Shown here: piece by piece, positions 3,032 to 18,061 of the stretch
Layout of the letters: the number at the start of each line of letters is the position of its first letter
How positions within the stretch are numbered: the first letter of the stretch is position 1
The notes under the pieces: generated by a model
Told to the model about the DNA's origin: nothing
What the model saw: only the letters and a program-made list of their open reading frames with translations
Database searches by the model: none
Assembly (NCBI GenBank): GCA_016786485.1
Contig: JAEUWD010000043.1
Span: 1-33,170 of the forward strand
Source of the DNA: Bacteriovoracaceae bacterium
GTDB lineage: Bacteria; Bdellovibrionota; Bacteriovoracia; Bacteriovoracales; Bacteriovoracaceae
Direction: 5' to 3'
DNA: 33,170 bases
Made by a program: the position numbers and the translations under genes

Positions 3032-5557
3032 TTACCTCGTTCCTTGTAAATTAATACTGTCGGTATTGCCACCACCATCATCAGCTGTCGCACTTCCTAT
3101 ATCTGTCCCAGATGGTAAGATCCATTGATAAGTAATCCCCACGGTACAATTAGCGAGTGGAGCAAGCGTCGTTCCACTACAGTTATCCGATGGGCCATCG
3201 ACCACAAATTTAAAATCAGCATTGGTAGCATTAATTGTAAGCACGCCGCTGGTCGCATTACCATTATTGGTTAAAGTAAAAGTTTTGGTAACGTCGACAC
3301 CCGGCGAGCCATAATCCCAAGCCGTCTCATCCCAGCTTAAAGTAATGACAGGAGTGAGGTTGACAGTAATACCTGAAGTGGATGGAGCAGAGTAGGTGAG
3401 AATAGCGTTGATTAAAGCTGCGTTTCGAATGGTGCCACCATTCAGTTCGAGTGGTGATACCATCACAATTCCATCGGAGTCAGAATCGAGTGCGGTCGCG
3501 GTATATCTAAAAATTAAATTGGTACTTCCGCTACCTGAAAGATAAGTAGCATAAACGGTACCCGAATCAAGTGTGATGGGAATTCTTGGCGAGCCGGTAA
3601 CATTCACGGCGACCGAAAAAGTGGCGGTGAAATTTAAATTATTACCTAAGATATAATCGCCGTTGGCCGGAGCGCTCATATTCGTAATCGTTGGTTCTGT
3701 CACTTGCCACGCACTTGAAGTTACTACGTTAGAAATAAAACCTGCATTATCGTGAGCTCGTAATGAAGTATAGTAGTCAGTGCCAAGACTTAAACTAAGT
3801 CCCGACATTTGTCGTGAAGTGACGGTCCCGATATTCGTCCACGCCACCACGTCTGTTCCACCTGCACTTGTCCCAATCGCCATTTCGTAATGATTTAAGC
3901 CTGAACAAGCATCAGTCGTTGCACTCCAAGTATGAGTAGGAGAAGTCGCTGTGGAAACACTGGCCGAAGAAATGGTGAAACCTGAAATATTATTGGGAGC
4001 TGAATTATCATAACAGAAAGCAGAACTGTTTCTTGCGGTTGAAGTGTTGGTAGCTTGGTCAGAAGCTCGAACGGTAGCGTAGTAGTTCTGTCCTTCTACT
4101 AGCGTTAATCCCGTCGCGGTCGCACTGGTGTCTGCCCCATCACTCGTCCAAGCTAAAGTTTGTGTTCCTCCGACAGTGGTTCCAATTCCAATTTGATAAT
4201 CGGTAACACCGTTAGCATCGGTTGAAGCTCCCCAAGTAAAACTCGGTGACTGAGTATTGTTGGTTGTGTAGGTCGCTCCAAGAGCAATCACTCCAGGAGT
4301 CGTCGGATTGGTATTATCTAAACGCGCTTGAATGTGCACGGTTGGTGAAACATTTCCAGCGTTTTGCGCCTGAACGTGAATATAATAATTTCCGTTACCT
4401 GTTGCTTGTGAAGCATTAGTCGTAGCGCCAAAAGCTTGGTTGGTGAAAGTAAAAGCTGCGCTAGTATTAATCACGTAACGGTAAGTACAAGGCAAACTAT
4501 CACAGCTCCAAGTCCAGTTTTTAACTTTCGTTGGAACAAGGTCGGCCACGAGTCCGGTCACGTTAACGGCATCAGGTAGCATAAAGCTCGATGATGTCAC
4601 CGCAGTTGTAACGAGGTTTAAATTGTCGCGCGCTCGTACATTCATGTAGTACGTAACACCTTGTTGTAACCAAGGAGTAATAGTGATGAATTGGTGATTG
4701 AGCGCAGTTCCCACGTTAGTCCAAGTAATAATATTACTGCCGCCTATCGTGGTGCTCAAAGAAACTTCATAACGAAGTAATCCTGAACACGCATCAGTGG
4801 AAGCATCCCAACTCAGTTGAGGAGAGTTGGTTAAAAACGCTGTCCCTGTGAGAATAAGATTTGAAGGTAGAGTTGGAGCGGAAACATCATAACAAAATGA
4901 TCCAAAATTTGAGTGCACGCCTGAAACGTTAGTTGCTACGTCGTGAGCACGAATAGAAGGGTAGTAAGTCACACCTTCGCTGAAAGCGACACCTGTAAAT
5001 TGTTCCGTTAAAACCGCTCCATTCGTCGCCCATGCCACGACATCACTCGCACCTGGTGAAGTGCCAAGTGCTGTTTCATAATGATCAACACCGTTCAAGT
5101 CAGTGGATGCGGTCCACGTGATATTCGGTGAAGAAGTTGTGCCGGTATAAGCTAAGGCCACGGCCCCACCTGTTGGATCAGTTGGTGCTGTATTATCGAG
5201 AATGGCCGAAACACTCGTCACGCCCGATTCATTAAGCGATAAATCATCCCAAACTTGCACGTGTAGATAATAAATATCATCACCATTGGGTTGATTGGCC
5301 GTCGTTGATGCCAAGACATAAGGTTCAACCGTGAAGGTGTGAGTTGAAGAAGTATTAATGGCGTAACGATAATGACAATTTCCACCTGAAACGGAATTAC
5401 ATGACCAGTTCCAAGTTTTGGATTGGGTTGGAACAGCGTCGTCGGTTAATGTTGTTACCGCAAAACCTTGAACAGCGGTGCTAATTAAATCACGCGCTCC
5501 ACAAGAAACGAGGAGGGTTAGGCTGAGGATAATATGTGGTAACAAAATTTTACCCAT
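3032..5557 (-). CDS. Large modular lipoprotein with A-B-C-A-B-C Ig-like repeats
   Basis: This is an 841-residue lipoprotein. The signal peptide ends in lipobox LVSC with lipidated Cys19. Residues 31-327 hold three different Ig/Fn3-like modules and residues 332-619 repeat the same three in the same order. Module A has TWNWSC (48-53) and NWTWSC (347-352). Module B has ASTDLNGV (150-157) and ASTDANGV (444-451). Module C has STDACSG (253-259) and TTDACSG (548-554). Cysteines in FCYD (222, 515) and DACSG (257, 551) may form one disulfide per copy. Residues about 620-735 form a different beta-sandwich. Residues 738-841 resemble a choice-of-anchor D domain (FTLTNNGNATSGVLTI; LANCTVGITY). It is probably a surface adhesin or matrix protein; the ligand is unknown. 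The ribosome binding site is weak. Confidence 0.85.
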   Translation of the reverse strand: MGKILLPHIILSLTLLVSCGARDLISTAVQGFAVTTLTDDAVPTQSKTWNWSCNSVSGGNCHYRYAINTSSTHTFTVEPYVLASTTANQPNGDDIYYLHVQVWDDLSLNESGVTSVSAILDNTAPTDPTGGAVALAYTGTTSSPNITWTASTDLNGVDHYETALGTSPGASDVVAWATNGAVLTEQFTGVAFSEGVTYYPSIRAHDVATNVSGVHSNFGSFCYDVSAPTLPSNLILTGTAFLTNSPQLSWDASTDACSGLLRYEVSLSTTIGGSNIITWTNVGTALNHQFITITPWLQQGVTYYMNVRARDNLNLVTTAVTSSSFMLPDAVNVTGLVADLVPTKVKNWTWSCDSLPCTYRYVINTSAAFTFTNQAFGATTNASQATGNGNYYIHVQAQNAGNVSPTVHIQARLDNTNPTTPGVIALGATYTTNNTQSPSFTWGASTDANGVTDYQIGIGTTVGGTQTLAWTSDGADTSATATGLTLVEGQNYYATVRASDQATNTSTARNSSAFCYDNSAPNNISGFTISSASVSTATSPTHTWSATTDACSGLNHYEMAIGTSAGGTDVVAWTNIGTVTSRQMSGLSLSLGTDYYTSLRAHDNAGFISNVVTSSAWQVTEPTITNMSAPANGDYILGNNLNFTATFSVAVNVTGSPRIPITLDSGTVYATYLSGSGSTNLIFRYTATALDSDSDGIVMVSPLELNGGTIRNAALINAILTYSAPSTSGITVNLTPVITLSWDETAWDYGSPGVDVTKTFTLTNNGNATSGVLTINATNADFKFVVDGPSDNCSGTTLAPLANCTVGITYQWILPSGTDIGSATADDGGGNTDSINLQGTR

Positions 5558-5675
5558 AATACTTTATTTTAACACTTTCTCGGGGACAAAAGTTATGCGG
5601 AAAATTCCTCCTAAAATACCCTCTAAGAAAACGGAATTATTGGCTTTTTTGGAATTCGCGACCAACCATTTATGA

Positions 5676-5715
5676 GGCGTTTGTAAGCTTTTTTTTACAA
5701 TTCTAAACAGACGCC
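5676..5715. repeat. Hairpin-forming inverted repeat in a 278-nt intergenic region
   Basis: GGCGTTTGT (5676-5684) can pair with ACAGACGCC (5707-5715) with one G-T pair. A shorter alternative pairs TTGTAA (5681-5686) with TTACAA (5695-5700). It lies between the divergent lipoprotein gene (start 5557) and outer-membrane protein gene (start 5836). The rest of this spacer holds the promoter at 5790-5818 and otherwise nothing I can name. The role may be a leader structure or an operator. Confidence 0.35.
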
Positions 5716-5789
5716 AAGCTTGCTTTGCACCCCATAATTTAAGCACTTGAAATTATTGATTTTTCAGAGGCGGCACCTTTTGCTTTGGC

Positions 5790-5818
5790 TTGAGTGCAGC
5801 ACCTAGCATTTATACAAT
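5790..5818 (+). promoter_or_regulatory. Sigma70-like promoter for the PorV-like gene
   Basis: TTGAGT (5790-5795) and TACAAT (5813-5818) are separated by 17 nt. Transcription would start near 5825, only about 11 nt before ATG 5836. This argues for ATG 5836 as the true start, because an in-frame ATG at 5794 lies inside this promoter. Confidence 0.6.
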
Positions 5819-5835
5819 TAAAGATGGGACGATCT

Positions 5836-6933
5836 ATGAAGTGGTTTTTGTTACTATTTTTAATTTCCTTTGAGTCCAAAGCGCAGCTGCGTTTTGAAGA
5901 CTTTGCGTTCCCTGAATTCGTCACTTCTAGTCGCGCGCTCGCTATGGGAAATGCATACATTTCCAAGGTCGATGATCCCTGGGCCGCTTTCTACAATCCC
6001 GCTGGTCTCGGAACGGTACGCAAGCCCACTTTGCATTTAATCAATTTGCACATTGAAACGAACAACAACATGTTAGACTTAGCTTTCGGCGGAAATATTT
6101 TGGATAATGGAAGCGAAGCTTTTAATTATTTTAGTGAAGATGGATTGCGACAATTATTACAAAATAACCGCGGAAATCTTTTACATAATCGTCTCAATCT
6201 TTTTCCTAATTTTACGATGAGAAATTTGACCGTTGGTTATTTCATGGCCAAGCAACTCCGCGCTTATGTTCCAGTTGATCCTTCCTTTGATATGGAGCTA
6301 GGAGACCGTCTCGATCACGGGCCGATTATTTCGACCAACTTCTCTCTCTGGGGAGGTGTTATGAAATTCGGTTTAAGTATTGCCTATGTTCAGCGTAAAG
6401 AATTACTCAAAACCGATGTGGATATTACTCAGCCACTCGACTCGCAAATTACCAGTGCTTCGTATGACAAAGGTGGCGCAACCATCATGACGGCAGGAAC
6501 CAAATTAACTTTACCCATTATGTGGTTACCAACTTTTTCCGCCGTTTTAAGAAATGCAGCTGCTCAGAAATTTTCCAATGCGAGCGGTGCCGGAGCTCCA
6601 GATGATATTGAGCAAACGGTCGATCTCGGTTTTTCGCTTACTCCACAATTTGGCCGTTCCGTGCGAGTCCATCTCGAGGCCAATGTCAAAGATGTGAAAG
6701 ATAAGTACGATGTCCGTTTCGAAAGACGTGCGATGGCCGGGATGGAAATTGATTTCTCACGTATCTTTTATATTCGTGCTGGATATGGTGATGGTTATGG
6801 TTCGGGAGGTATCGGCTTTAGAACTGACAGTTTCTATTATGATTTAACCACCTACGCCACCGAAGCTACTCCGAATAACTTCCGAGCGATTGAAGATCGA
6901 AGATGGGTTCTTTCCCTCTCAAGCGGTTTCTAA
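5836..6933 (+). CDS. PorV/UPF0164-like outer-membrane barrel protein
   Basis: This 365-residue protein starts with signal peptide MKWFLLLFLISFESKA, cleaved before QLRF. The mature N-terminus carries SSRALAMGNAYISKVDDPWA and then AFYNPAGLG. This is the characteristic opening of the PorV/UPF0164 and FadL-like families: a conserved Ala-Met-Gly-Ala/Asn, then a D-rich turn and NPAGL. The rest alternates polar and hydrophobic residues in strands typical of a 12- to 14-stranded barrel. It ends in Phe (LSLSSGF), a usual sorting signal for the outer-membrane assembly machinery. It may move hydrophobic compounds or act as an outer-membrane partner of a secretion system; the sequence does not decide. 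ATG 5836 is chosen over 5794 and 5824 because of the signal peptide start and the promoter position. Confidence 0.85.
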   Translation: MKWFLLLFLISFESKAQLRFEDFAFPEFVTSSRALAMGNAYISKVDDPWAAFYNPAGLGTVRKPTLHLINLHIETNNNMLDLAFGGNILDNGSEAFNYFSEDGLRQLLQNNRGNLLHNRLNLFPNFTMRNLTVGYFMAKQLRAYVPVDPSFDMELGDRLDHGPIISTNFSLWGGVMKFGLSIAYVQRKELLKTDVDITQPLDSQITSASYDKGGATIMTAGTKLTLPIMWLPTFSAVLRNAAAQKFSNASGAGAPDDIEQTVDLGFSLTPQFGRSVRVHLEANVKDVKDKYDVRFERRAMAGMEIDFSRIFYIRAGYGDGYGSGGIGFRTDSFYYDLTTYATEATPNNFRAIEDRRWVLSLSSGF

Positions 6934-6983
6934 AAAATAGTTACAATACCTTCGAACACCATGTAAAAAATACAATGAATATG

Positions 6984-7012
6984 TTGTAAGTTTAGTGACA
7001 TGTTAGGATATT
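6984..7012 (+). promoter_or_regulatory. Possible promoter for the coiled-coil lipoprotein gene
   Basis: TTGTAA (6984-6989) and GATATT (7007-7012) are separated by 17 nt. Predicted transcription start is near 7020, immediately before the inverted repeat at 7022-7036. The hexamer match is moderate. Confidence 0.4.
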
Positions 7013-7021
7013 TCCTCATGC

Positions 7022-7036
7022 AACCATCCTATGGTT
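7022..7036. repeat. Inverted repeat at the predicted 5' end of an mRNA
   Basis: AACCAT (7022-7027), spacer CCT, ATGGTT (7031-7036) is a perfect 6-bp inverted repeat. It lies directly before the Shine-Dalgarno TAGGGAG of the gene starting at 7051. In RNA it would form a small stem right at the 5' end, which could stabilise the message. As DNA it could be an operator. Confidence 0.4.
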
Positions 7037-7050
7037 AGGGAGTTTTTGTT

Positions 7051-8367
7051 ATGAAAATGTTTATTCATTTGCCTATCGTTTTAGTTCTGTCAGTTCTTGC
7101 AGTTTCTTGTAACGCCTTAAAAGAAGCCGGTGAGAACGCTGAAAAATCGGCTCAGAACTCTGGCCGTGCCGCAGGAACCGGTGAATCACTTCACTATGGT
7201 GCTCAAAGTAAAGAATCAGACGCAAGTTTTTCTGAATACGAAAATAAAATGATCAATGCTGATGAGATGGCCCAGAAAACTCGTTACGCTGCTTCCATGA
7301 TCAAATCTCTTACTTATCAAACTATTTATAAATTAGATGCCATGAAATTCATGACAGATGAACAATTTGAAGCTTATTACGATCTGAAATTAACTGAGGA
7401 CGTGAATAAGGTTTGGCGTGTTATTAACGAAAATCGTCCAAGTTCAGGTAAATTTGAAATTTCGAAAATGAAAGGAAAGGATGGGAATATTAAGGCCATT
7501 GCCCTTGCGCTTCATGAAATAAATCCTCTCTGCGAAGTGGTCGCGGGTCCAAAAATTGGCCGTCAGTGTAGCATGCTTGAAATTATCAAAGATGCTTACC
7601 GTGCGAAATATGTTGAAGGTAAAAGTGTTGAAGAATTAAAAGATTACCAAAAAGTTATTACACGAAACGAAAAAGAATTTATCTATATTCTTGATTTACG
7701 TGTGAAGTTCTTACCAATGGTTGCGATTAAACAAATCTCAAATCTTGATGATGGTCTTTTTACAAAAGTTTCGATGCTCTTAAGTAGCTGGACCCCAAAT
7801 TTTTTAGCTGACGAAGAGTATAACAATGAAGCAGCGGATTCACTGGGGAAACTAGAGGAGCTTTTAGAGATGAAAGCGACTTATGAGTCTGACTATCGTG
7901 CAGCAGAAGCTTCTGGTGATGTTAAGAAATCAGAAAAAGCTAAAAAAGAAATCGCTAAGATTGATAATATGATTAAAAATCGTGAAGCTAAAAACGCGAA
8001 GAATTTAGAAAAAGCTTTAAGCAAGCTTGAAAGCAGTGAAGCAAGTAGTTATGAAAAACCATTAATTCATGACGGGGATTTAGATTTCTATCGAAAAATT
8101 ATGGAAAAAGTTATTGCTGATCGTGATTTCTTAAGAAGTATCGTGCGAGTTTCAGGTGTTGGTGCATACCAAAAAGCTGTTCCTTTACGATTTGCTGAGC
8201 AATCTCCACTTGTTTTAAGATTCCTTAAGAATCTTGATACTTCAGAGTTAGAAAAAATGAGTGAATCTGAATTGGAGAGTAGAGGTTATAGCACGGAAGA
8301 GCGTGAAGCTTTTATCAATTCGTTAAACAATATTTTAAATAATAATAAATATAAATTTTCGAATTAA
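7051..8367 (+). CDS. Coiled-coil lipoprotein of unknown function
   Basis: This 438-residue protein begins with a lipoprotein signal peptide ending in LAVSC, with Cys20 as the lipidated residue and Asn at +2. The mature protein is highly charged and mostly helical. A Lys/Glu/Ala-rich stretch around residues 270-330 (for example SEKAKKEIAKIDNMIKNREA) predicts a coiled coil. Cysteines in NPLCEVV and GRQCSML could form a disulfide. I recognise no family. TAGGGAG with about 8 nt spacing supports ATG 7051. The gene runs convergently into the receiver-domain gene, and the two stop codons share a TTAA at 8364-8367. It may be a periplasmic structural or envelope-stress protein, which is a guess. Confidence 0.75.
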   Translation: MKMFIHLPIVLVLSVLAVSCNALKEAGENAEKSAQNSGRAAGTGESLHYGAQSKESDASFSEYENKMINADEMAQKTRYAASMIKSLTYQTIYKLDAMKFMTDEQFEAYYDLKLTEDVNKVWRVINENRPSSGKFEISKMKGKDGNIKAIALALHEINPLCEVVAGPKIGRQCSMLEIIKDAYRAKYVEGKSVEELKDYQKVITRNEKEFIYILDLRVKFLPMVAIKQISNLDDGLFTKVSMLLSSWTPNFLADEEYNNEAADSLGKLEELLEMKATYESDYRAAEASGDVKKSEKAKKEIAKIDNMIKNREAKNAKNLEKALSKLESSEASSYEKPLIHDGDLDFYRKIMEKVIADRDFLRSIVRVSGVGAYQKAVPLRFAEQSPLVLRFLKNLDTSELEKMSESELESRGYSTEEREAFINSLNNILNNNKYKFSN

Positions 8368-9155
8368 GGTTTTTCCTGGTCACCTTTCATTATACTGAGA
8401 AGGGCCTTGGTTTTATCGTGGACGACAAAGAGATCATTTTCGATTTCAAGTAGGATGTCTTTGTATTGTTCAGGCACTTTTAGTTCAAATTCACGTGTGA
8501 ATTGATCTGAGTCATCGACTAACTTCATATCACCAATAATCGTATAATGCTTAATAACGCCATTAATACTTGATTCAAATTTAATCTGGCGAGCGTAGGC
8601 TTCGATTTTCTCTAAGGAGCTACTTGATATTGTCACCGTGAGTTCTTCTGGGTTTATATTCAAAATGCTGGCTTCTATCATCGTATTAGTGGCCTTGAGT
8701 AGCATCTGAGCCTTGATTTTGCAGAAAGCTCCTAGAATCATTGCAGGGTCTTCTCTGACGTATGCTTTATATGATTCATCCATCGTTTTAGGTCTATCAT
8801 CGATTTCAGTGGTGCTACTGCCACCCAAAACACTAGAAGTTTTTTGTTTTTCAATATTTTCTATGTCTGTATAAAAATCACTTAACATGATTAGTTTATC
8901 ATCCGAATCTAACAGTTTTTTTACTTTCATTTTTTTTAAGAAATTTTGTGCAACTTCATTGGTTAATCGATAATCGCAAATCACATAATCAATGGAAGCT
9001 TTCATCGCAAGCGTAAACGCGTCTTCAAAATCAGTTGCGACAAATACTTTTTTAGCTCCTTGGATGAGTAGAAAACTACGGGCCTTGTCACGTTTTTCAA
9101 CATCCGGCTCGACTAGCAAAATTGTATTTTTATTAATTTTTCTTTGTAGTGACAT
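8364..9155 (-). CDS. Degenerate receiver-domain protein with a novel C-terminal domain
   Basis: This 263-residue cytoplasmic protein starts with a response-regulator receiver fold: strand TILLVEPD (residues 11-18), then IDYVICDYRL with the phosphoacceptor position Asp61, then LIMLSDFY with Ser92 at the usual Thr/Ser site. The acidic pair is E16/D18. The conserved Lys-Pro is not present; the equivalent place reads AYVREDP after a Ser/Thr-rich insert (108-120). Phosphorylation chemistry is therefore probably altered. Residues about 140-263 form an unknown alpha/beta domain with no HTH, GGDEF or enzyme motif. The start codon follows the upstream gene's stop directly (TAA then ATG) and AGGAG lies within that gene, so it is translationally coupled to the trans-envelope FecR protein. 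It is probably that protein's cytoplasmic partner (inferred). Confidence 0.75.
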   Translation of the reverse strand: MSLQRKINKNTILLVEPDVEKRDKARSFLLIQGAKKVFVATDFEDAFTLAMKASIDYVICDYRLTNEVAQNFLKKMKVKKLLDSDDKLIMLSDFYTDIENIEKQKTSSVLGGSSTTEIDDRPKTMDESYKAYVREDPAMILGAFCKIKAQMLLKATNTMIEASILNINPEELTVTISSSSLEKIEAYARQIKFESSINGVIKHYTIIGDMKLVDDSDQFTREFELKVPEQYKDILLEIENDLFVVHDKTKALLSIMKGDQEKP

Positions 9156-12100
9156 TTAGAAACCTGCTCCTACTGAGAAGTTCAAACTAAACTCAGAAAT
9201 TTTAGAACTCTCTTCCGTGGTTAAACTATCATTGAAAGCGTAACCTAAATTGGTAAGTGAGTATTTCATTTTTATCCCTAACCAATAAATCTGTTTATAG
9301 AACCTACGCTCATACCAACCACCATAAGACATACCGTCTTCTGAGTTTGTGACATTTTTTAAAAATTCCAATCCGATGATATCATACAAGTTGCCTTGTC
9401 GATTCCAGCGAAAAGAAATGTCGTGCATATAATAGACATGACTTGTTCGTTCTGTCAGATAATTTGCACCGCTTAAAATGGGATATGAAAAGCGATTAAG
9501 CGCAGGGCCAAAATTCATGAAAAGGCTGGTGCGATTGGTAATAGTGGTGCGGTAGTTAAAAAAGAAACGCGCCACTTCATTGTTAAATTTAAATTCACCG
9601 TGAGCATCGTTAGTAGCATCGTAAAAAACAAAATTACCGTCATTACGGCGATAAGAAAGCCCGTAACCAAAATTTCCTGCTAGAAACTTCGGCCAGTGCG
9701 TGTAGGCGAGGGAAACATTGAGAGCACTACCTTTAGCTTCACCTTCAACAATGCTAGCGTTAGTGGAGGTAAAATCATTTTTAAATGTATTAGTACTAGC
9801 ACCCATGGTTAATTCAATTTCGTATTGATAACCCTTATTAAGTGTAAATTGATAAATTTTACTCGGAACCCCGTGTCCTTTAGCGGGTAATTCTTTAACT
9901 GCTGTGACATTTTCATCTTTTGGAAAATCAAAAGAAGTTACGAGCTGATAGTAATAATTCTTTTTATTTTTTAATTTCAAAACGGCGCGGTTATTCGATG
10001 CTAAATAGACTTGTCGTCCATATTTGAAATTTTCGTCTTCAGCAATAATAATGTAATAACTGAGCGCATCTTCATTTGCTGTCCATTGGAAATAAACATC
10101 GACATCTTGGTTCTGACCTAGGAAGGTATTTTTCGAAGGGTAAATAGGAGTCGGTGGTGGTAAATTCTCATTCGAGAGTATATTAAACTCATAAGTCTCT
10201 GACCACTTGGTTTTTGAATATTTATTAGAACCCCTCACGCGCCAGTAAAAGGTTTTTAAATATGAGGGAGCGGCCACATATCCGTATTGATTTTTTAAGA
10301 CTTTGGTTTCAAATTTAATTTCATCAAAATCATCGTCATGGGAAACTTGTAATTCATATTCATCGACATAATTAATGGAATCCCAATTCATCATAATGGC
10401 GGGCTTAATATCTTCGGTATATTTGTAACGCCTTTTATTTTCAAAACTATGCACTTTAGGTTTTAAATCATCAATAATTGGCTTGATAATCACTTCGGCT
10501 GGTTCAGAGTAGTGACTTGCGATACGGCCCATTTTATCAATCGCTCGTACGCGCCAGTAAAAATTTTTATTAATAAAAAGCTCCAACTCGATCTCATCCT
10601 TTTCTGATTTTAATTTATTAGCATGTTGGAACTGGAGATTATCCGCCAGTTCGATCTGATATGTTTTGGCATACTTGCTTGGTTTCCAACTAAGCGTAAT
10701 ATATTCCGATAAAGTTTTTTTATTTTCTTCATTGAGCTCGACTTCATAGTTGCGCGAAGTATCTGCTACAGGTGTTGCAAAAAAAAGTTTTATACTACCA
10801 GGTTCACTGGCGACACCTTCCATGCCTTTTTTATCAATAGCACGAACACGCCAATAATATGTCCCAACTGAATCGTGTTCCCAAACAAATTTAGTGTCTT
10901 CAATAACCATGTCGACAATGTTCTTGTTAAATTTTTTATCCGGGCCAATTTCTAATCGATATTTTCGTGCACGTTCAACCGTCTCCCACTCAAGCGTAAC
11001 TTCCGTTGTCGCATCAGCACCGTAAGCACTAGGTAAAATCAAATCCAAAAAAAAATTGATAAACTTATTGAAAGTAAACTTCTGCTCAAGCTTATCATTT
11101 TTTAGCTTCGGTGGAGCAGGCGGGGGTGGGTCATCCACTTTGAATGGAATGGCTTCAGTATACTCATTAATAACACCTTTCAGGTTAATGCCTCGAACGC
11201 GCCAATAAAAAGTTTTCTTCTCGTCGGTTTCCCATTCGAAAGTGTGATTTTTCGTTAACTGGAGCAGGACTAGTTCTTCTTGCTTAAAAACTTTATTGGC
11301 CGAAATCTCGATTTGATAATCGGTGAAGGTCGGATTATTTTCCCATTCAAATTTCACTTTAACGGTATTATCAAAAAGCTTAAAGATTTCATTTTTCTGT
11401 GGCTGTAATAATTTAATGGTTTCATCACTCTTTTTTAAGAGGATTCGAAATTTCCCAATCTGTGACCATGTTCGTTCTTTACCCTTGCGGTCGTCTAGTT
11501 TTATCCGCCAGTGATATTCACCTGGGGCCAGGGCATGATTAATAAATGTTTGTGGAACTTTTTCCTGAACCACGATATCGGTGAACTTTTTATCGTGGGC
11601 CAACTCAAAGTCGAAACCACTATCTTTAATATTAAAGACCCATTTAAAGTTAATATCAAAAGACGCTTTTGATAAATCTTCTATGTAGTCAAAAAGATAA
11701 GGGTAATATAAGTCTGTATTACCTTCAGGTAAAATCAGTTGTGGCGGTTCTTCTAAGATAACACTGAACTTGTGTGAAATACTTTCACCAACAATGATAT
11801 TGTTTTTGATAACTTTAATTTTCCAAAAGTAGTTTCCTGACTTTTTAGGTCGTGGTGTTTCAAATTCCGTTTTTGTTGTTTTGTAGCTGAAATACATTTC
11901 TTTAAAATAACGATCGCTAGCGAATTCAAAAAGATAAGAGTCGGCTTCCACTAATGGTGTCCAGTTGTATTGAATTTTTTCTTTTGGTGAAAGAATAATT
12001 TCGTCATTGATAGAAGGTGAGCTGAGTTTTACGGTGTGCTTACTGACGTTACCAATATTATTGCCAGACATCTCAACTGTTTGGTTTTGACCTACGTTTT

Positions 12101-12674
12101 GAGAACCATCAGCAGTATTAAAATTCGCGTTACCTGAAAGAACGTCAACTTTGGCAGCTTGACCATCTTTCATATTTAAATTAATTTCCGCGCCTTCTTC
12201 TGAGCTTAACTCGAAATCATCATTCCCAACCGTTTTAAGTTTTACGTTTTTACCAAGTTTTCCAGAAATTCCGCCGCTGGCGATATCGATACTGGCATTA
12301 GCATCTTTTTTGCTGATAACAACCATACTGTCAGGTTCGATTGTGAAAGTGGAACCGTCATCAAATTTCACCACAACCGAAGAATTTTTCCCGGTGAAGA
12401 TGGTTTCATTTTCAGTCACTCTTTGTTCACTACTGGCGGGAATCCAGACTAAGTCAGAAGGTAATTTCTTTCTAACGTCGTTTTCTGGATCATAAAGGGT
12501 AGCTACCGGGTTTTCTTGTTGCTGGCGTTTCTTGGCCATAATGTTTTGGAATAAAATCTTGTCGTCTAAAATGAGGAGACCCGAAACAAAAAGGAAAAAA
12601 GCTGCCACCGAGATAACAATGTTATCAACTTTTTTTTCTGGATCTTGAAAATCTAAAAAGCTTAACTTAATCAC
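9156..12674 (-). CDS. FecR-domain protein with inner-membrane anchor, Ig-like modules and predicted outer-membrane barrel
   Basis: This is a 1172-residue protein. A charged N-terminus precedes one uncleaved-looking TM helix (about 18-37). Residues about 75-205 form a FecR-type beta domain (VTENETIFTG; VVVKFDDGSTFTIEPDS). Seven Ig/Fn3-like modules follow at about 232-945, most ending in a repeated motif: YFWKIKV, YHWRIKL, FYWRVRG, YYWRVRA, FYWRVRA, FYWRVRG and YYYQLVT. Residues 516-522 form a proline-rich linker. The last 220 residues show amphipathic strands and finish SLNFSVGAGF, with a terminal Phe as in outer-membrane barrels. If both ends are as predicted it spans the whole envelope. The start is GTG 12674 with GAAGAAG upstream; no in-frame ATG is available. 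It is divergent from the histidine kinase and in operon with the receiver protein. Confidence 0.82.
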   Translation of the reverse strand: MIKLSFLDFQDPEKKVDNIVISVAAFFLFVSGLLILDDKILFQNIMAKKRQQQENPVATLYDPENDVRKKLPSDLVWIPASSEQRVTENETIFTGKNSSVVVKFDDGSTFTIEPDSMVVISKKDANASIDIASGGISGKLGKNVKLKTVGNDDFELSSEEGAEINLNMKDGQAAKVDVLSGNANFNTADGSQNVGQNQTVEMSGNNIGNVSKHTVKLSSPSINDEIILSPKEKIQYNWTPLVEADSYLFEFASDRYFKEMYFSYKTTKTEFETPRPKKSGNYFWKIKVIKNNIIVGESISHKFSVILEEPPQLILPEGNTDLYYPYLFDYIEDLSKASFDINFKWVFNIKDSGFDFELAHDKKFTDIVVQEKVPQTFINHALAPGEYHWRIKLDDRKGKERTWSQIGKFRILLKKSDETIKLLQPQKNEIFKLFDNTVKVKFEWENNPTFTDYQIEISANKVFKQEELVLLQLTKNHTFEWETDEKKTFYWRVRGINLKGVINEYTEAIPFKVDDPPPPAPPKLKNDKLEQKFTFNKFINFFLDLILPSAYGADATTEVTLEWETVERARKYRLEIGPDKKFNKNIVDMVIEDTKFVWEHDSVGTYYWRVRAIDKKGMEGVASEPGSIKLFFATPVADTSRNYEVELNEENKKTLSEYITLSWKPSKYAKTYQIELADNLQFQHANKLKSEKDEIELELFINKNFYWRVRAIDKMGRIASHYSEPAEVIIKPIIDDLKPKVHSFENKRRYKYTEDIKPAIMMNWDSINYVDEYELQVSHDDDFDEIKFETKVLKNQYGYVAAPSYLKTFYWRVRGSNKYSKTKWSETYEFNILSNENLPPPTPIYPSKNTFLGQNQDVDVYFQWTANEDALSYYIIIAEDENFKYGRQVYLASNNRAVLKLKNKKNYYYQLVTSFDFPKDENVTAVKELPAKGHGVPSKIYQFTLNKGYQYEIELTMGASTNTFKNDFTSTNASIVEGEAKGSALNVSLAYTHWPKFLAGNFGYGLSYRRNDGNFVFYDATNDAHGEFKFNNEVARFFFNYRTTITNRTSLFMNFGPALNRFSYPILSGANYLTERTSHVYYMHDISFRWNRQGNLYDIIGLEFLKNVTNSEDGMSYGGWYERRFYKQIYWLGIKMKYSLTNLGYAFNDSLTTEESSKISEFSLNFSVGAGF

Positions 12675-12795: not shown

Positions 12796-15378
12796 ATGTT
12801 TAAAAAAGTTTCGCTAAAATACAAATTACTTCTGTTACTGGTGGCCGCACCAGTATTCACACTACTTAGCTATCTTTTGATGGCGACGGATATTTTTGAA
12901 GAAGATAAGCTTGCTTATATTTACAGTTCCAATCTTACCAATGTAAAAACACTCTCAACTCAATTGAGAAGTGATTTGGAAATTGTTGATAAAACCAAGG
13001 ACGTTATTCTTACTGGTTTCAATACAGAAGTAGAATCATTTGATGTTATTTCGCAAAACACTTTCGATGATGAAAATTCCATTCTTCTTATACAGGTTTA
13101 TGCTAATAAAGGCTTAGCTGATTTAAATCTCGCAGCTGAATTAAAGCAACCCAATTTAAAAGATGAAATTCTCAATTTCGTTGACGCGAATATTAAAACA
13201 GCATTGTCGGAAGTTATTAATAACCAACAAATTGTAAAAGTAGTCAATTCGACTGAAGGTATCTTTTCGTCATTTTCACTCTTGAAAACGCGTCAAGGTA
13301 AAGGCTACTTAGTCGCCACGGTTTTCAAATCAAACCTGATTTTAGAAGCCTTTTATGGTGATAGTCTCTTTAGTAATTATCTCCTGGGTAATGATGGCAA
13401 AATCATTATGGGTAAATCGGAAATTTGGGGGGAAAGTATCTATAACTTCAATTCACTTTCATTCTATAAAAAAATACTGGAAAACAAATTTGATCAGGGA
13501 ACTTTAGAAGCACGAGAATTTGAAAAACCGGAGTTATTAGTTGCATTCACTCGCTTGCCAGATTTAGGCTATACTATTGTCACCGTCCTTGAAAAAGAAT
13601 TTGCACTCCGTGCGTTGTACACCTTAATTATTAAATCTCTCATATTCTTAGTCTTTATTGTTTCTCTCTCTATTATATTAAGTGTTATCGCTTCCAATAA
13701 ATTAACTTCCACGCTTCGCAAACTTTTACTAGGGTCAGAAGAAATTGGTAAAGGGAATTTCGGAGTGCGAATCCAAATTGACTCAGGTGATGAGATCGGG
13801 CGTTTAGGTGAGTCGTTCAACTTGATGGCGACTAAAATTTCTAAACTTTTAACAGAATTAAAGGAATACAGCGAAACCTTAGAATTAAAGGTTCAAGAAA
13901 GAACTGCAGAATTAAATCGTGCTTTGAAGTTACAGGAAGCGATGGTTGATAGTTTAGGTCAAGGATTTTTTATTTTTAATGAGAGTGGTGAGATTCTCCC
14001 CGTTTATTCCAAGGCCAGCGAAAGAATTTTTAACACAACTCCCAGTGGGAAATTTATTGGTGATCTTTTAAATGTTCCTGAAGGTGAAAAAAACTCTTTC
14101 AAAGATTTTTGTCGCAGTATGATCAATGAAGATTTACCATTCCAAGATTTGGCGATTATGGCACCCAACCGCGTAAACCGCGAAGATCGTTCAATCTTTG
14201 TCGAATACAATCCAATTCGCGATGAGAGTTCGAAAATTAGCGGCGTCGTTGTAGTTGCGACGGATAAAACAGAAGAAGTAAAGGCCTTAAAAGAAGCAGA
14301 AAAAGAAAGGAAGTTCGTGGAAATGATTGTTAAGATGATGAGTAATAAAGGACAATTCTTAAAATTTCTGCAAGAAACAAAAAAATATTTAAAAGAAACC
14401 AAGGACTTCGTTTTAAGTGGCGAAGAACCAAAAAGTGGTGAGTTGCGTGAAGACGTTCTCTTTAGAGGAATGCATACACTGAAAGGAAATTCTGGTCTTT
14501 TCCATATGATCGAGGTGCATAAATATGCTCACGAAATTGAAAACCATATTACAGACATTAAAAATTCCCCGGTACCACAAAAAGCCAAAAAGTATGAAAC
14601 ACTTATTATCATGTTAGAAAACATGGAGGATATTTTTAAGAATTTTGTCAGCGCCAATAAAAAAGTGCTTGGTATTAAGTCTTGGAATAACTTTGAAAAA
14701 GCTTTTGAGGTTTCGGTTGATAAACTCCAAACATTCTTAGATAAAATGAAAACCCATAACGTTCACGATGAATTACTCGATAATTTTATGGATACTATTT
14801 ATTCTGAAGCAACTTACAACTTCTTAGCTCAGTATGAAGAATTAACCGAGGAAGTTGCAACTAAGCTTGGTAAAGAAATTAATCCATTACAAATTTTCGG
14901 AGGAGAAATCCGTTTGAATGGTAAAGTTTACGATGAACTATTCTCAAGTTTAGTTCATGCCGTTCGAAACGCGATTGATCACGGGATTGAAAAACCGGAT
15001 GTTCGGGAAGAGCGAGGCAAGCCGCGCAAAGGAACTATTCAATTCTTTGTGGAAAAAATTCAATCTGATAGTGGTACGATGCTGCAAATTATCATGCAAG
15101 ATGATGGGGGCGGGGTTGACCCAGAAAGAATTCGCAAAAAACTTACTAATGATGGTAAAGCAGATGTTATTCAAGGCATGGATGATCAAGAAGTCATCCA
15201 GCAAATCTTTGCGCCAGGCTTTTCAACTAATACAGAAGTTACTGATTTGTCAGGTCGTGGCGTTGGAATGGATGCGATCATGAACGTTTGCAAGAGTTTA
15301 AATGGAACAATTTGGGTGGAATCTGAAGTAAAAAAAGGGACCAAATTCATCATTCAAGTCCCTTTCCGTCGTCAATAA
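12796..15378 (+). CDS. CheA-like Hpt/HATPase sensor kinase with HAMP and PAS domains
   Basis: This 860-residue inner-membrane kinase has TM1 at about 9-30, a periplasmic sensor of about 240 residues (CACHE-like length), and TM2 at about 272-299. A HAMP domain follows at about 300-352 (GNFGVRIQIDSGDEIGRLG), then a coiled coil (353-380) and a PAS-like domain (about 381-495). A Hpt domain is at about 505-620 with phospho-accepting His560 in MHTLKGNSG. The HATPase domain has N-box HAVRNAIDHG (721-730), G1 DDGGGVD (769-775) and G2 GRGVGM (820-825). It ends right after the HATPase, so it lacks the CheA dimerisation (P3) and CheW-like (P5) domains and would not join a chemoreceptor array in the usual way. 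The CheY-like protein encoded just downstream on the other strand is the obvious phosphate acceptor (inferred). AGAGAAG supports ATG 12796. Confidence 0.9.
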   Translation: MFKKVSLKYKLLLLLVAAPVFTLLSYLLMATDIFEEDKLAYIYSSNLTNVKTLSTQLRSDLEIVDKTKDVILTGFNTEVESFDVISQNTFDDENSILLIQVYANKGLADLNLAAELKQPNLKDEILNFVDANIKTALSEVINNQQIVKVVNSTEGIFSSFSLLKTRQGKGYLVATVFKSNLILEAFYGDSLFSNYLLGNDGKIIMGKSEIWGESIYNFNSLSFYKKILENKFDQGTLEAREFEKPELLVAFTRLPDLGYTIVTVLEKEFALRALYTLIIKSLIFLVFIVSLSIILSVIASNKLTSTLRKLLLGSEEIGKGNFGVRIQIDSGDEIGRLGESFNLMATKISKLLTELKEYSETLELKVQERTAELNRALKLQEAMVDSLGQGFFIFNESGEILPVYSKASERIFNTTPSGKFIGDLLNVPEGEKNSFKDFCRSMINEDLPFQDLAIMAPNRVNREDRSIFVEYNPIRDESSKISGVVVVATDKTEEVKALKEAEKERKFVEMIVKMMSNKGQFLKFLQETKKYLKETKDFVLSGEEPKSGELREDVLFRGMHTLKGNSGLFHMIEVHKYAHEIENHITDIKNSPVPQKAKKYETLIIMLENMEDIFKNFVSANKKVLGIKSWNNFEKAFEVSVDKLQTFLDKMKTHNVHDELLDNFMDTIYSEATYNFLAQYEELTEEVATKLGKEINPLQIFGGEIRLNGKVYDELFSSLVHAVRNAIDHGIEKPDVREERGKPRKGTIQFFVEKIQSDSGTMLQIIMQDDGGGVDPERIRKKLTNDGKADVIQGMDDQEVIQQIFAPGFSTNTEVTDLSGRGVGMDAIMNVCKSLNGTIWVESEVKKGTKFIIQVPFRRQ

Positions 15379-15390
15379 ATCAATTAAAAA

Positions 15391-15795
15391 TTACTTATTA
15401 TGCTTATCCCAGCAGAAAACGATCTTCTCTGCTAAGCTTTGCTTTGTCCATGGTTTCAAAAGATAGTTTGAAGCACCTGATTGAACCGCTGAAACAACTG
15501 TATTGCGATCATTTTCGCTGGTTAAAAGTAGGAATGGGACATTTTTGAAAGCCGCTTCTGCACGTGCTAATTTCAAAAACTCGATACCATTTGTTCCTGG
15601 CATCATCAGATCGCTGATAATAAACTTAATATCAGCCGCTTTATCTTTAAGAACTTTAAAGGCAGCCTCTCCGTTTTCAGCTTCATAAATCTGACCTGTG
15701 AAACCAAGGCCTCTAAGATCTTTGATCAAATTTGCTCTCATTGTTGCATCGTCTTCGGCACATAAAAAACCTGAATTTTCCGCCATTTTTCCCAT
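15391..15795 (-). CDS. CheY-like single-domain response regulator
   Basis: This 134-residue protein is a stand-alone receiver domain with all catalytic residues. The acidic cluster is E14-D15-D16 (CAEDD), the phosphoacceptor is Asp62 in FIISDLMMPG, the switch site is Thr92 in LLLTSEND, and the conserved Lys is Lys114 in YLLKPW. There is no output domain, so it signals by protein contact or relays phosphate. A strong Shine-Dalgarno AGAGGTGAT precedes the ATG at 15795. It converges on the Hpt/HATPase kinase gene with only 12 nt between stop codons, which suggests it is that kinase's partner (inferred from position). It is divergent from the FHA-like membrane protein gene. Confidence 0.92.
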   Translation of the reverse strand: MGKMAENSGFLCAEDDATMRANLIKDLRGLGFTGQIYEAENGEAAFKVLKDKAADIKFIISDLMMPGTNGIEFLKLARAEAAFKNVPFLLLTSENDRNTVVSAVQSGASNYLLKPWTKQSLAEKIVFCWDKHNK

Positions 15796-15925: not shown

Positions 15926-18061
15926 TTGTCATTCGCTTTTTTATTAAATATTCCTTCTCTAAATGATAACCCGATGCATCGGGTTGACAAATTTTTTACT
16001 GTTGGGAGTCAGGAAGGGGATTTGCTTATCAATGATCCTACGGTTGAAGGGAAACACTGTAGCTTTATAGTCAACGATAACGTGGCTTCGGTCATTGACC
16101 ACAATAGTAGTTTAGGGACTTATATCGACGGTCAACGTATTCCTTCTGATCGTTTTGTTATTCTCATGAATGGTGACAAATTAAAAATTGGTGATGTCGC
16201 GGCAGAAGTGAAATTTCAAGAGGGCGACATGTCGGGCAACTTATATTTATATCAACTAGGTTCTCAGGCCAAAGCTGAAGCCAAATCGGTTGAACAATTA
16301 TTTGTTGACCAAATCATTAATGAAGTTGATATGGCCGGTCCAGTCGTTGAAGAAAAACCAGAACCTTCAGGCAAAATTAGTGCGACTCAAATCCTAAAGC
16401 TCCATGCGACTAAAGAAATTTCACCGGAAGATAAAACTTCTGACAATATTCAGATTCCAAAAGAGTTTAAAGCACCTAAGAAAAAGAAAGGTTTTAAACT
16501 GGAATTAGATAATCTTTTTTCCAGCAAGCCAAAGAAAACCAAAGTTCAGAAAGTGAAAGTGATGAAGATTGCTTCCAATTATGGACCCGTCGAGGCGATG
16601 GTTCGATTGTTATCGGTTTTAGTCGAATTAAGTTTTGCGAATTTTCTTTATCATCAAGCCTTATTTGACCTGACTTTCACTTTTGAAGGAATTTTGCTCG
16701 AAATAAAAAATACATTAGCACTACCTGAATTAGATTTTATTTTCACAGATTATAAAGAATTACTAATTACCTTAATGGTCTTTTCTCTTTTACGTTTGAT
16801 CAGTGTTGTCGCTTTTTCAGTGTCATACAGTCAGTTTATTCTTTCGTTTGCTTCACAATCGGACGGTAGTTCACCTCGTTTAGGTGGAATTATTCGTGAA
16901 GGGATTGGTCTTATTTTGTTACCGATTTCGTTATGTTTAGATTGGATTTTAATTCTCCATAAGCCGACGTTAAAAGAGACGCTTTCAAGATATCCGATTG
17001 GACTACAATCAAAAGTTTCAGCGATTGTTTATTCTATTGTTTTGGTGCCGTTGTCGTTAGTCATTTTTATGCTCAATCCTCTCTTGAAAGATTTTTCTTT
17101 AAAAGAAGAATTTGTGGTGAATGTCGAAAAGAAGGCGACTAAACAAAATAACGAAGCTTTAAGTTTTCAAAACTCTTTGTTCTATGAATTGCAAGTTTTA
17201 TCATCGTTTGAATCTGATTTCGAAGTTCTGCCTGTATTCTCCCCACAAGGCGATCTGACCGAAACAGAATTGCTGTTCGTGCACAAAAAAGATGATGTAA
17301 GCTTTAGATTAAGAAAATATGACCATAAAATGTTAGTCAATTTACTCCGTCAATTTCAGCAGTCTGATTTATTTTTTAGCATGAGCTATCCGATGCTAAA
17401 TCAAGCTTTAGAGTCGAATCAATTAAAAAGTGATGTCACAACTGAATTGCAAGATCTCTTTTTAAAATCTTTCGGTCTTAATTTAATGAGCTTGATGGAT
17501 CATGTGATGACACAAGGACCGATGACGAATGCTTATATTAGTTTGCGTGAATCTCTAGTAAAGGAATTGGGAGTTGCTATCTTTGATAAATTTACGATTA
17601 CTAATCAACTTGGAAATGATCATATTCGTATCGATTCTCATATTCCAAAAAAATCTTTTCAGATTTTTTATATTCCACTCTCACTTTCTTCTGGTCCGCT
17701 TTTAAGAGTTGAGATCGTGGCTTCGTATGAAAAGAGTTTGGAGATTGCAAATAACTTTTTTAGTAATACTAAGAAATTACCTAAGATTAATAAAGATGAA
17801 CTGGTAAGCGAAAATACGACTGCAATGGGATTGCTAGATTCGATGAGCAATAATAGTGAACTGGCCGCTTCTCATATTCAAACTTTTTTTACTGAAAAAA
17901 AGAAAACGATTATTGCCACCAATCCCGTCAACTTTGATGATTATAAGCGTTCGGTACAGTCGACTCTTAAATTTATTCAGATTAAAATGAAGCCCCTGAA
18001 AGATGATAAGAAAGTTGCTTGGGAGCAAGCAATTGATACGCTTGAACTTTTGATTAAATGA
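15926..18061 (+). CDS. FHA-fold membrane protein with RDD-like segment
   Basis: This 711-residue protein starts at TTG 15926, fixed by TAGGAG at 15913-15918 with 7 nt spacing. Residues about 20-95 form an FHA fold (FFTVGSQEGDLLINDPTVEG; SSLGTYIDGQRI), but positions that normally bind phosphothreonine are changed. A flexible linker (about 100-215) is rich in Lys and Glu. At least three membrane segments follow (about 276-298, 325-346 and 365-385), with a weaker one near 222-245. The Arg/Asp placement is only loosely RDD-like. The remaining 300 residues form an unknown, probably soluble domain. The gene overlaps the following outer-membrane protein gene by 4 nt (ATGA), so the two are likely made together. 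A role linking cytoplasmic signalling to the envelope is inferred. Confidence 0.78.
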   Translation: MSFAFLLNIPSLNDNPMHRVDKFFTVGSQEGDLLINDPTVEGKHCSFIVNDNVASVIDHNSSLGTYIDGQRIPSDRFVILMNGDKLKIGDVAAEVKFQEGDMSGNLYLYQLGSQAKAEAKSVEQLFVDQIINEVDMAGPVVEEKPEPSGKISATQILKLHATKEISPEDKTSDNIQIPKEFKAPKKKKGFKLELDNLFSSKPKKTKVQKVKVMKIASNYGPVEAMVRLLSVLVELSFANFLYHQALFDLTFTFEGILLEIKNTLALPELDFIFTDYKELLITLMVFSLLRLISVVAFSVSYSQFILSFASQSDGSSPRLGGIIREGIGLILLPISLCLDWILILHKPTLKETLSRYPIGLQSKVSAIVYSIVLVPLSLVIFMLNPLLKDFSLKEEFVVNVEKKATKQNNEALSFQNSLFYELQVLSSFESDFEVLPVFSPQGDLTETELLFVHKKDDVSFRLRKYDHKMLVNLLRQFQQSDLFFSMSYPMLNQALESNQLKSDVTTELQDLFLKSFGLNLMSLMDHVMTQGPMTNAYISLRESLVKELGVAIFDKFTITNQLGNDHIRIDSHIPKKSFQIFYIPLSLSSGPLLRVEIVASYEKSLEIANNFFSNTKKLPKINKDELVSENTTAMGLLDSMSNNSELAASHIQTFFTEKKKTIIATNPVNFDDYKRSVQSTLKFIQIKMKPLKDDKKVAWEQAIDTLELLIK

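Follow-up and report, generated by a model that had tools for sequence, protein, structure and literature searches.

A FecR-Ig-barrel protein paired with a membrane sensor in Bdellovibrionota, a candidate precursor of two envelope proteins

We analyzed a stretch of 33,170 nucleotides (hereafter the window) from the genome of Bacteriovoracaceae bacterium (assembly GCA_016786485.1, contig JAEUWD010000043.1, positions 1 to 33,170). It carries a large gene encoding a FecR domain, a series of Ig/Fn3-like modules and a C-terminal barrel on one chain, which we call the FecR-Ig-barrel protein. The features of the locus are the following (residues are those of this protein, and a slash marks the putative cut).

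8364-9155 (-): receiver-like protein, encoded immediately downstream of the FecR-Ig-barrel gene on its strand, kept in the ortholog locus
9156-12674 (-): whole FecR-Ig-barrel gene, 1172 codons, GTG start
9159-9848 (-): predicted outer-membrane barrel, about residues 943-1172, model strands starting at residue 905 (AlphaFold2, Foldseek, VIA-align)
9849-11006 (-): Ig/Fn3 modules 4-7, residues 557-942, approximate limits, the last one poorly modelled (AlphaFold2, Foldseek, VIA-align)
11007-11132 (-): proline linker with embedded signal-peptide-like segment, residues 515-556 (motif, alignment, AlphaFold2 disorder)
near 11019 (-): candidate cut after residue 552, AYG/ADA (SPase-I-like motif)
11133-12038 (-): Ig/Fn3 modules 1-3, residues 213-514, approximate limits (Pfam, AlphaFold2, Foldseek, VIA-align)
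12129-12404 (-): FecR domain, residues 91-182 (Pfam PF04773)
12564-12623 (-): N-terminal TM helix, residues 18-37, signal anchor without SPase site (hydropathy, site scan, AlphaFold2)
12796-15378 (+): divergent partner sensor, with TM, periplasmic Cache-like domain (weak), TM, HAMP, PAS, Hpt and CheA-like ATPase
15391-15795 (-): single-domain response regulator beyond the sensor, a possible target (Pfam)

The receiver domain of the downstream protein is diverged and lies below the Pfam cut-off, and its C-terminal portion matches no assigned domain. Farther away, the window encodes a protein (5794-6933, plus strand) resembling the PorV/PorQ proteins known in type IX secretion, with an NCBIfam PorQ match (E-value of 2.7e-9) that scores far below the cut-off, and an FHA-domain protein (15926-18061, plus strand) weakly similar to TagH and to the cytoplasmic domain of YscD.

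The large open reading frame is real, and has a full-length relative at 43% identity in a different genus. The Pfam profile PF04773 matches residues 91-182 with an E-value of 9.6e-5 and 23.2 bits, slightly under the cut-off of 24.0, compatible with the FecR-type domain proposed in an earlier note on this DNA. The match to Ig_Rha78A_N exceeds its Pfam cut-off. We modelled the full chain with AlphaFold2 using 25 family members as input (mean pLDDT of 73.8). The model has a helix at residues 12-36, then the beta-rich FecR region, then a row of Ig/Fn3-like modules. Residues 213-835 form Ig/Fn3-like strands, residues 534-555 are disordered, and residues 835-903 are of low confidence. The top-listed Foldseek structures for the full chain are all Ig/Fn3-rich arrays, and the barrel emerged with VIA-align. 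Given the Pfam match, the modelled strands and these arrays, the seven Ig-like modules of the earlier note are a fair count, and the model as a whole reproduces the anatomy that it had described.

The C-terminal region, noted before as strand-rich, was modelled as twelve long antiparallel strands (residues 905-1171). VIA-align fits residues 903-1172 to the outer-membrane barrels of autotransporters (AaaA, EspP, NalP and others) with Z up to 18.6, in alignments of about 230-238 residues with rmsd of about 3.4-4.2. This fit and the final Phe of the protein argue for a membrane barrel, as had been proposed. The strand count is uncertain, because the first model strand overlaps the last Ig module as judged from the sequence. 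When the C-terminal domain was folded alone with two sequences, the pLDDT was 49 and the Foldseek matches were barrels with E-values above 0.01; we therefore prefer the full-chain model for the barrel.

At the other end, a single TM helix ahead of the FecR domain, which is presumably on the periplasmic side, looks uncleaved. The Kyte-Doolittle value of the helix is 2.5 across 19 residues, and a strict site scan found no credible SPase I site behind residues 18-37. An earlier, loose scan for AxA had matched within hydrophobic cores and failed to separate anchors from signal peptides, hence the adoption of the stricter one. The strict site is found in 5 of the 77 family N-termini; among the controls, it is found in 10 of the 73 first TM helices of partner sensors, which are true anchors, and in 6 of the 9 signal peptides of split barrel genes (see below). 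With this low frequency in the family, we rejected a cleavable N-terminal signal peptide. The claim of an uncleaved helix, with no signal peptidase site after residue 37, was thus upheld.

The FecR-Ig-barrel gene and the sensor are a conserved gene pair of the Bdellovibrionota. Using the FecR protein as bait within the same GTDB family, we found a related sensor beside the FecR gene at nearly every fetched locus. The reverse scan, with the N-terminal region of the sensor as bait across 84,980 species, returned 47 loci, 46 of which carry the FecR family according to its profile; the only one without it is a 6-kb contig. In some loci, the FecR gene is near the sensor without being immediately adjacent (e.g., L101-L103, L087, L091). 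The named loci belong to Bacteriovoracaceae, Halobacteriovorax, Bdellovibrio and Pseudobdellovibrio-type genomes, and a few MAGs carrying the locus are labelled just Deltaproteobacteria or Proteobacteria. A genome scan with the single sequence of the FecR-Ig-barrel protein gave no matches; the scan with an alignment of partner N-termini worked. A profile of the FecR N-terminal region had matches in 185 of the 241 genomes, representing 106 of the 141 genera sampled in the phylum.

The sensors have a common membrane module and different outputs: Hpt/HATPase in the window (a CheA-like kinase) and in L071, SpoIIE phosphatase in L034 and L072, class III cyclase in L055, and HisKA-HATPase-receiver in L098. 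The window genome has a second copy of the gene pair, on contig 46, with a SpoIIE-type sensor. Most partner-sensor relatives have such an output, followed by homologues of the ATPase-like and STAS-like genes of this paralogous locus, for which we found no Pfam match and whose names rest on inspection. This resembles RsbU-type partner switching (SpoIIE phosphatase, anti-sigma-like ATPase, STAS), whereas the output of the window copy is an Hpt/CheA-like kinase. In four Bdellovibrionaceae loci (L083, at 5439-11503, L086, L088 and L089), a barrel-less FecR protein of 715 residues is flanked by a SpoIIE-type sensor on one side and a PAS-Hpt-HATPase kinase on the other, and thus both outputs are present at one locus.

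Between Ig modules 3 and 4, the linker, predicted to be disordered, contains a segment resembling the end of a signal peptide (approximately residues 536-555 in the window), found in 36 non-redundant fused relatives. It consists of a hydrophobic core, Pro or Ser at position -5, a small residue at -3 and Ala at -1. The segment is FLDLILPSAYG/ADA in the window, LIISSAHA/QND in the paralog of the same genome, and ISSANA/AED (L036/L084), LIPSAYA/ND (L043/L121) or LIPSAYA/ED (L045) in other relatives. These 36 proteins were collected with a motif profile and the sample is thus biased toward the pattern: in it, position -1 is Ala in 35 proteins and Gly in the window, -3 is Ala, Val, Ser or Thr in all 36, -5 is Pro or Ser in 31, and 22 have an acidic residue at +2. 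When 28 fused proteins (mean identity of 22%) were aligned over their full length without using the motif, the -1 column had 27 Ala out of 28 and was tied third among 898 columns. The strict signal-peptide-like pattern is found at the site in 26 of the 36 proteins, against 9 of the 17,422 other positions of the same proteins. Hence, the features of an SPase I substrate (hydrophobic core, helix breaker near -5, small residues at -3 and -1) are present in the family consensus, with a core that is short and usually has Asp or Asn at -9.

The site tends to accompany the barrel. A simple rule for OMP-like C-termini, which misjudges some short proteins and is used here for a broad association only, places the site in 33 of the 45 proteins with such an end against 1 of the 25 without, and in this sole exception (L034) the end is barrel-like and carries a short tail. 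Among 1184 ORFs from all loci, the matches of the motif profile with E-values below 1 outside the FecR family were only the starts of the second genes of two split loci, L055 and L067. We also considered that the barrel half might arise from translation starting internally, and rejected this: of 30 upstream regions, 4 have an ATG and 15 have no ATG, GTG or TTG at all, and this scarcity of start codons makes internal initiation unlikely.

In nine loci, the barrel seems to be encoded by a second gene with its own signal peptide (L037/L081, L055, L067, L069, L071, L075, L076, L080 and, less clearly, L120). The second gene of L067 aligns with the fused proteins starting where its signal peptide ends (against the window, query residue 16 aligns with residue 549, E-value 6e-7); the barrel that it encodes and that of L066 are homologues (E-value 1.8e-9). 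This junction falls within a few residues of the embedded site in L121, L043, L047, L051, L044, L048 and the window. The first genes of L055 and L067 end at the same point of the linker, as do the barrel-less proteins of L059, L063 and L064. The second genes of L037, L069 and L071 have little similarity to the fused outer-membrane halves, and thus serve as parallels in function, not as proof that the junction is the same. The signal peptide that one would look for at the N-terminus of a barrel protein is absent there, and an SPase-like site is found internally, aligned with the signal peptide of a split gene. Since the family tree is poorly resolved, we make no claim on the number of fusion or splitting events. 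In L046, the FecR-family sequence looks broken, with an N-terminal-like piece at the contig edge (1-519, minus strand) and a C-terminal piece (3070-5427, plus strand) behind a STAS-like start, which may be caused by an assembly error or a rearrangement.

The reading that we favor, with a confidence only modestly above even, is that of a precursor putatively cut at the linker to give two proteins, FecR-Ig in the inner membrane and Ig-barrel in the outer one, the first of which would modulate the paired sensor. The gene would then provide the envelope arm of a signalling module that consists of two genes in Bdellovibrionota. The N-terminal helix would anchor a single precursor in the inner membrane, across which the rest would be exported, in the order FecR and three Ig modules, signal-peptide-like segment, four Ig modules and outer-membrane barrel. 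After export, a cut of the signal-peptidase-I type, suggested by the sequence pattern at the site and by the boundaries of split genes, may occur in the linker at about residue 552. It would yield the two proteins in equal amounts, and the two halves would meet in the periplasm. From the gene pairing, we infer that the FecR-Ig half would contact the divergently encoded sensor and modulate its periplasmic domain, so that the state of the outer membrane or envelope would control the kinase output or, in the relatives, a phosphatase or cyclase. Outer-membrane integrity, envelope spacing and cell contact are candidate inputs. The embedded site is more than 500 residues away from the N-terminal helix and presumably already on the periplasmic side, an unusual geometry for signal peptidase I. 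Hence, the short core may dock at the inner membrane, or a different protease that shares this preference may act.

The earlier note had proposed a single chain spanning the envelope, fixing the distance between the membranes or relaying force or signal. Anchor and barrel are indeed encoded by one gene, and the near-obligatory pairing with a membrane sensor strengthens the idea of a signal relay. The conserved SPase-I-like site in the linker and the matching boundaries of split genes make a membrane-spacing role doubtful for the mature protein. We consider it possible, though rather unlikely, that the chain stays uncut and inserted in both membranes, bridging them as a tether or tension sensor, with the AxA segment acting as a docking helix or hinge. 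Such a chain has both membrane parts, and the FecR domain and seven Ig modules would probably be long enough to span the periplasm. The Gly at -1 in the window and the absence of the site from six fused proteins (L039, L040 and L041, which are from one genome, L095, L104 and L058) leave this reading more open. A docking helix, however, does not explain the near-invariant small residues at -3 and -1 together with Pro or Ser at -5, nor does it account for the split genes, in which the break and a signal peptide are found at that very point.

It is also conceivable, but improbable, that the C-terminal half is an autotransporter whose 12-stranded barrel would export the Ig modules to the cell surface. 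The best fold matches are indeed autotransporter translocator barrels. However, barrels of similar size match each other widely, and the match is thus not proof of function; no plug helix was modelled ahead of the barrel, where residues 835-903 are of low confidence, and the last Ig module almost directly joins it. Finally, a reading of the N-terminal helix as an ordinary signal peptide, with a large outer-membrane protein as the sole mature product, is hardly credible: cleavable signal peptides are normal for outer-membrane barrels, but no SPase site lies behind this helix, the family resembles the true anchors of the partner sensors, in several relatives the helix is preceded by about 15-30 residues, and the first genes of split loci keep it without any barrel.

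As for the module with its putative precursor, the elements are already known: FecR domains, HAMP sensors, SpoIIE phosphatases, outer-membrane barrels and polyproteins such as FbcH. The FecA-FecR-FecI system also has a periplasmic FecR domain on one N-terminal TM helix, an outer-membrane barrel as partner and an inward signal. Here, the barrel is on the same chain with Ig modules in between, and next to it is encoded a membrane sensor whose output is a kinase, phosphatase or cyclase. We recognized no sigma factor or TonB-dependent receptor beside the FecR-Ig-barrel gene, whose neighbors are the HAMP-Hpt-CheA-like kinase and receiver proteins. FbcH, the cytochrome b/c1 precursor of Bradyrhizobium, is a polyprotein cut at an embedded signal sequence to yield two envelope proteins, both of them subunits of the same inner-membrane complex, and it is a polytopic protein that precedes its embedded signal. 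In the FecR-Ig-barrel protein, the halves would go to separate membranes and the domains ahead of the embedded signal are periplasmic. Proteins of the VirB10/TrbI type have an inner-membrane helix and also reach the outer membrane as a single chain; VirB10 is part of a secretion machine and crosses the outer membrane with helices, whereas a barrel is predicted here. Type Va autotransporters (NalP, EspP, AaaA) have a C-terminal outer-membrane barrel of the same general fold, at low identity to ours, which also differs in lacking a modelled plug helix and in having Ig modules that are probably periplasmic.

Our searches of the open-access literature uncovered neither a FecR-Ig-barrel module described for Bdellovibrio-like bacteria nor a polyprotein whose embedded signal serves two membranes. 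To our knowledge, envelope or cell-contact sensing by predatory and other Bdellovibrionota is poorly known, and a conserved module in which an outer-membrane barrel is joined to a periplasmic FecR-Ig arm and to interchangeable sensor enzymes is a direct candidate for it. If the protein is cut, both membranes would be supplied by a single bacterial polyprotein, which would fix the stoichiometry of the halves; if it is not, a single chain tying both membranes would be equally unusual. We are evenly divided on the broadest version of the claim, namely that these are phylum-wide polyproteins in which an embedded signal peptide sends the halves equally to two membranes, to make an envelope-spanning sensor with exchangeable cytoplasmic output.

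Two kinds of genes recur next to the FecR-Ig-barrel gene. The first, seen in several genera, immediately follows the fused gene in convergent orientation and codes for a Gly-rich protein whose C-terminal segment is hydrophobic (minus strand in L008 3034-3873, L014 3214-4059, L017 3022-3870, L018 3118-3603, L023 3217-4032 and L025 2728-3606; plus strand in L021 2-826); this protein might be a third component or a ligand. In other loci, the gene that comes next encodes a related putative lipoprotein (..CTDGGGGSTIEESLDDAFETD.. type): L015 (3-842, minus strand), L019 (3856-4653, plus strand) and L022 (2995-3780, plus strand).
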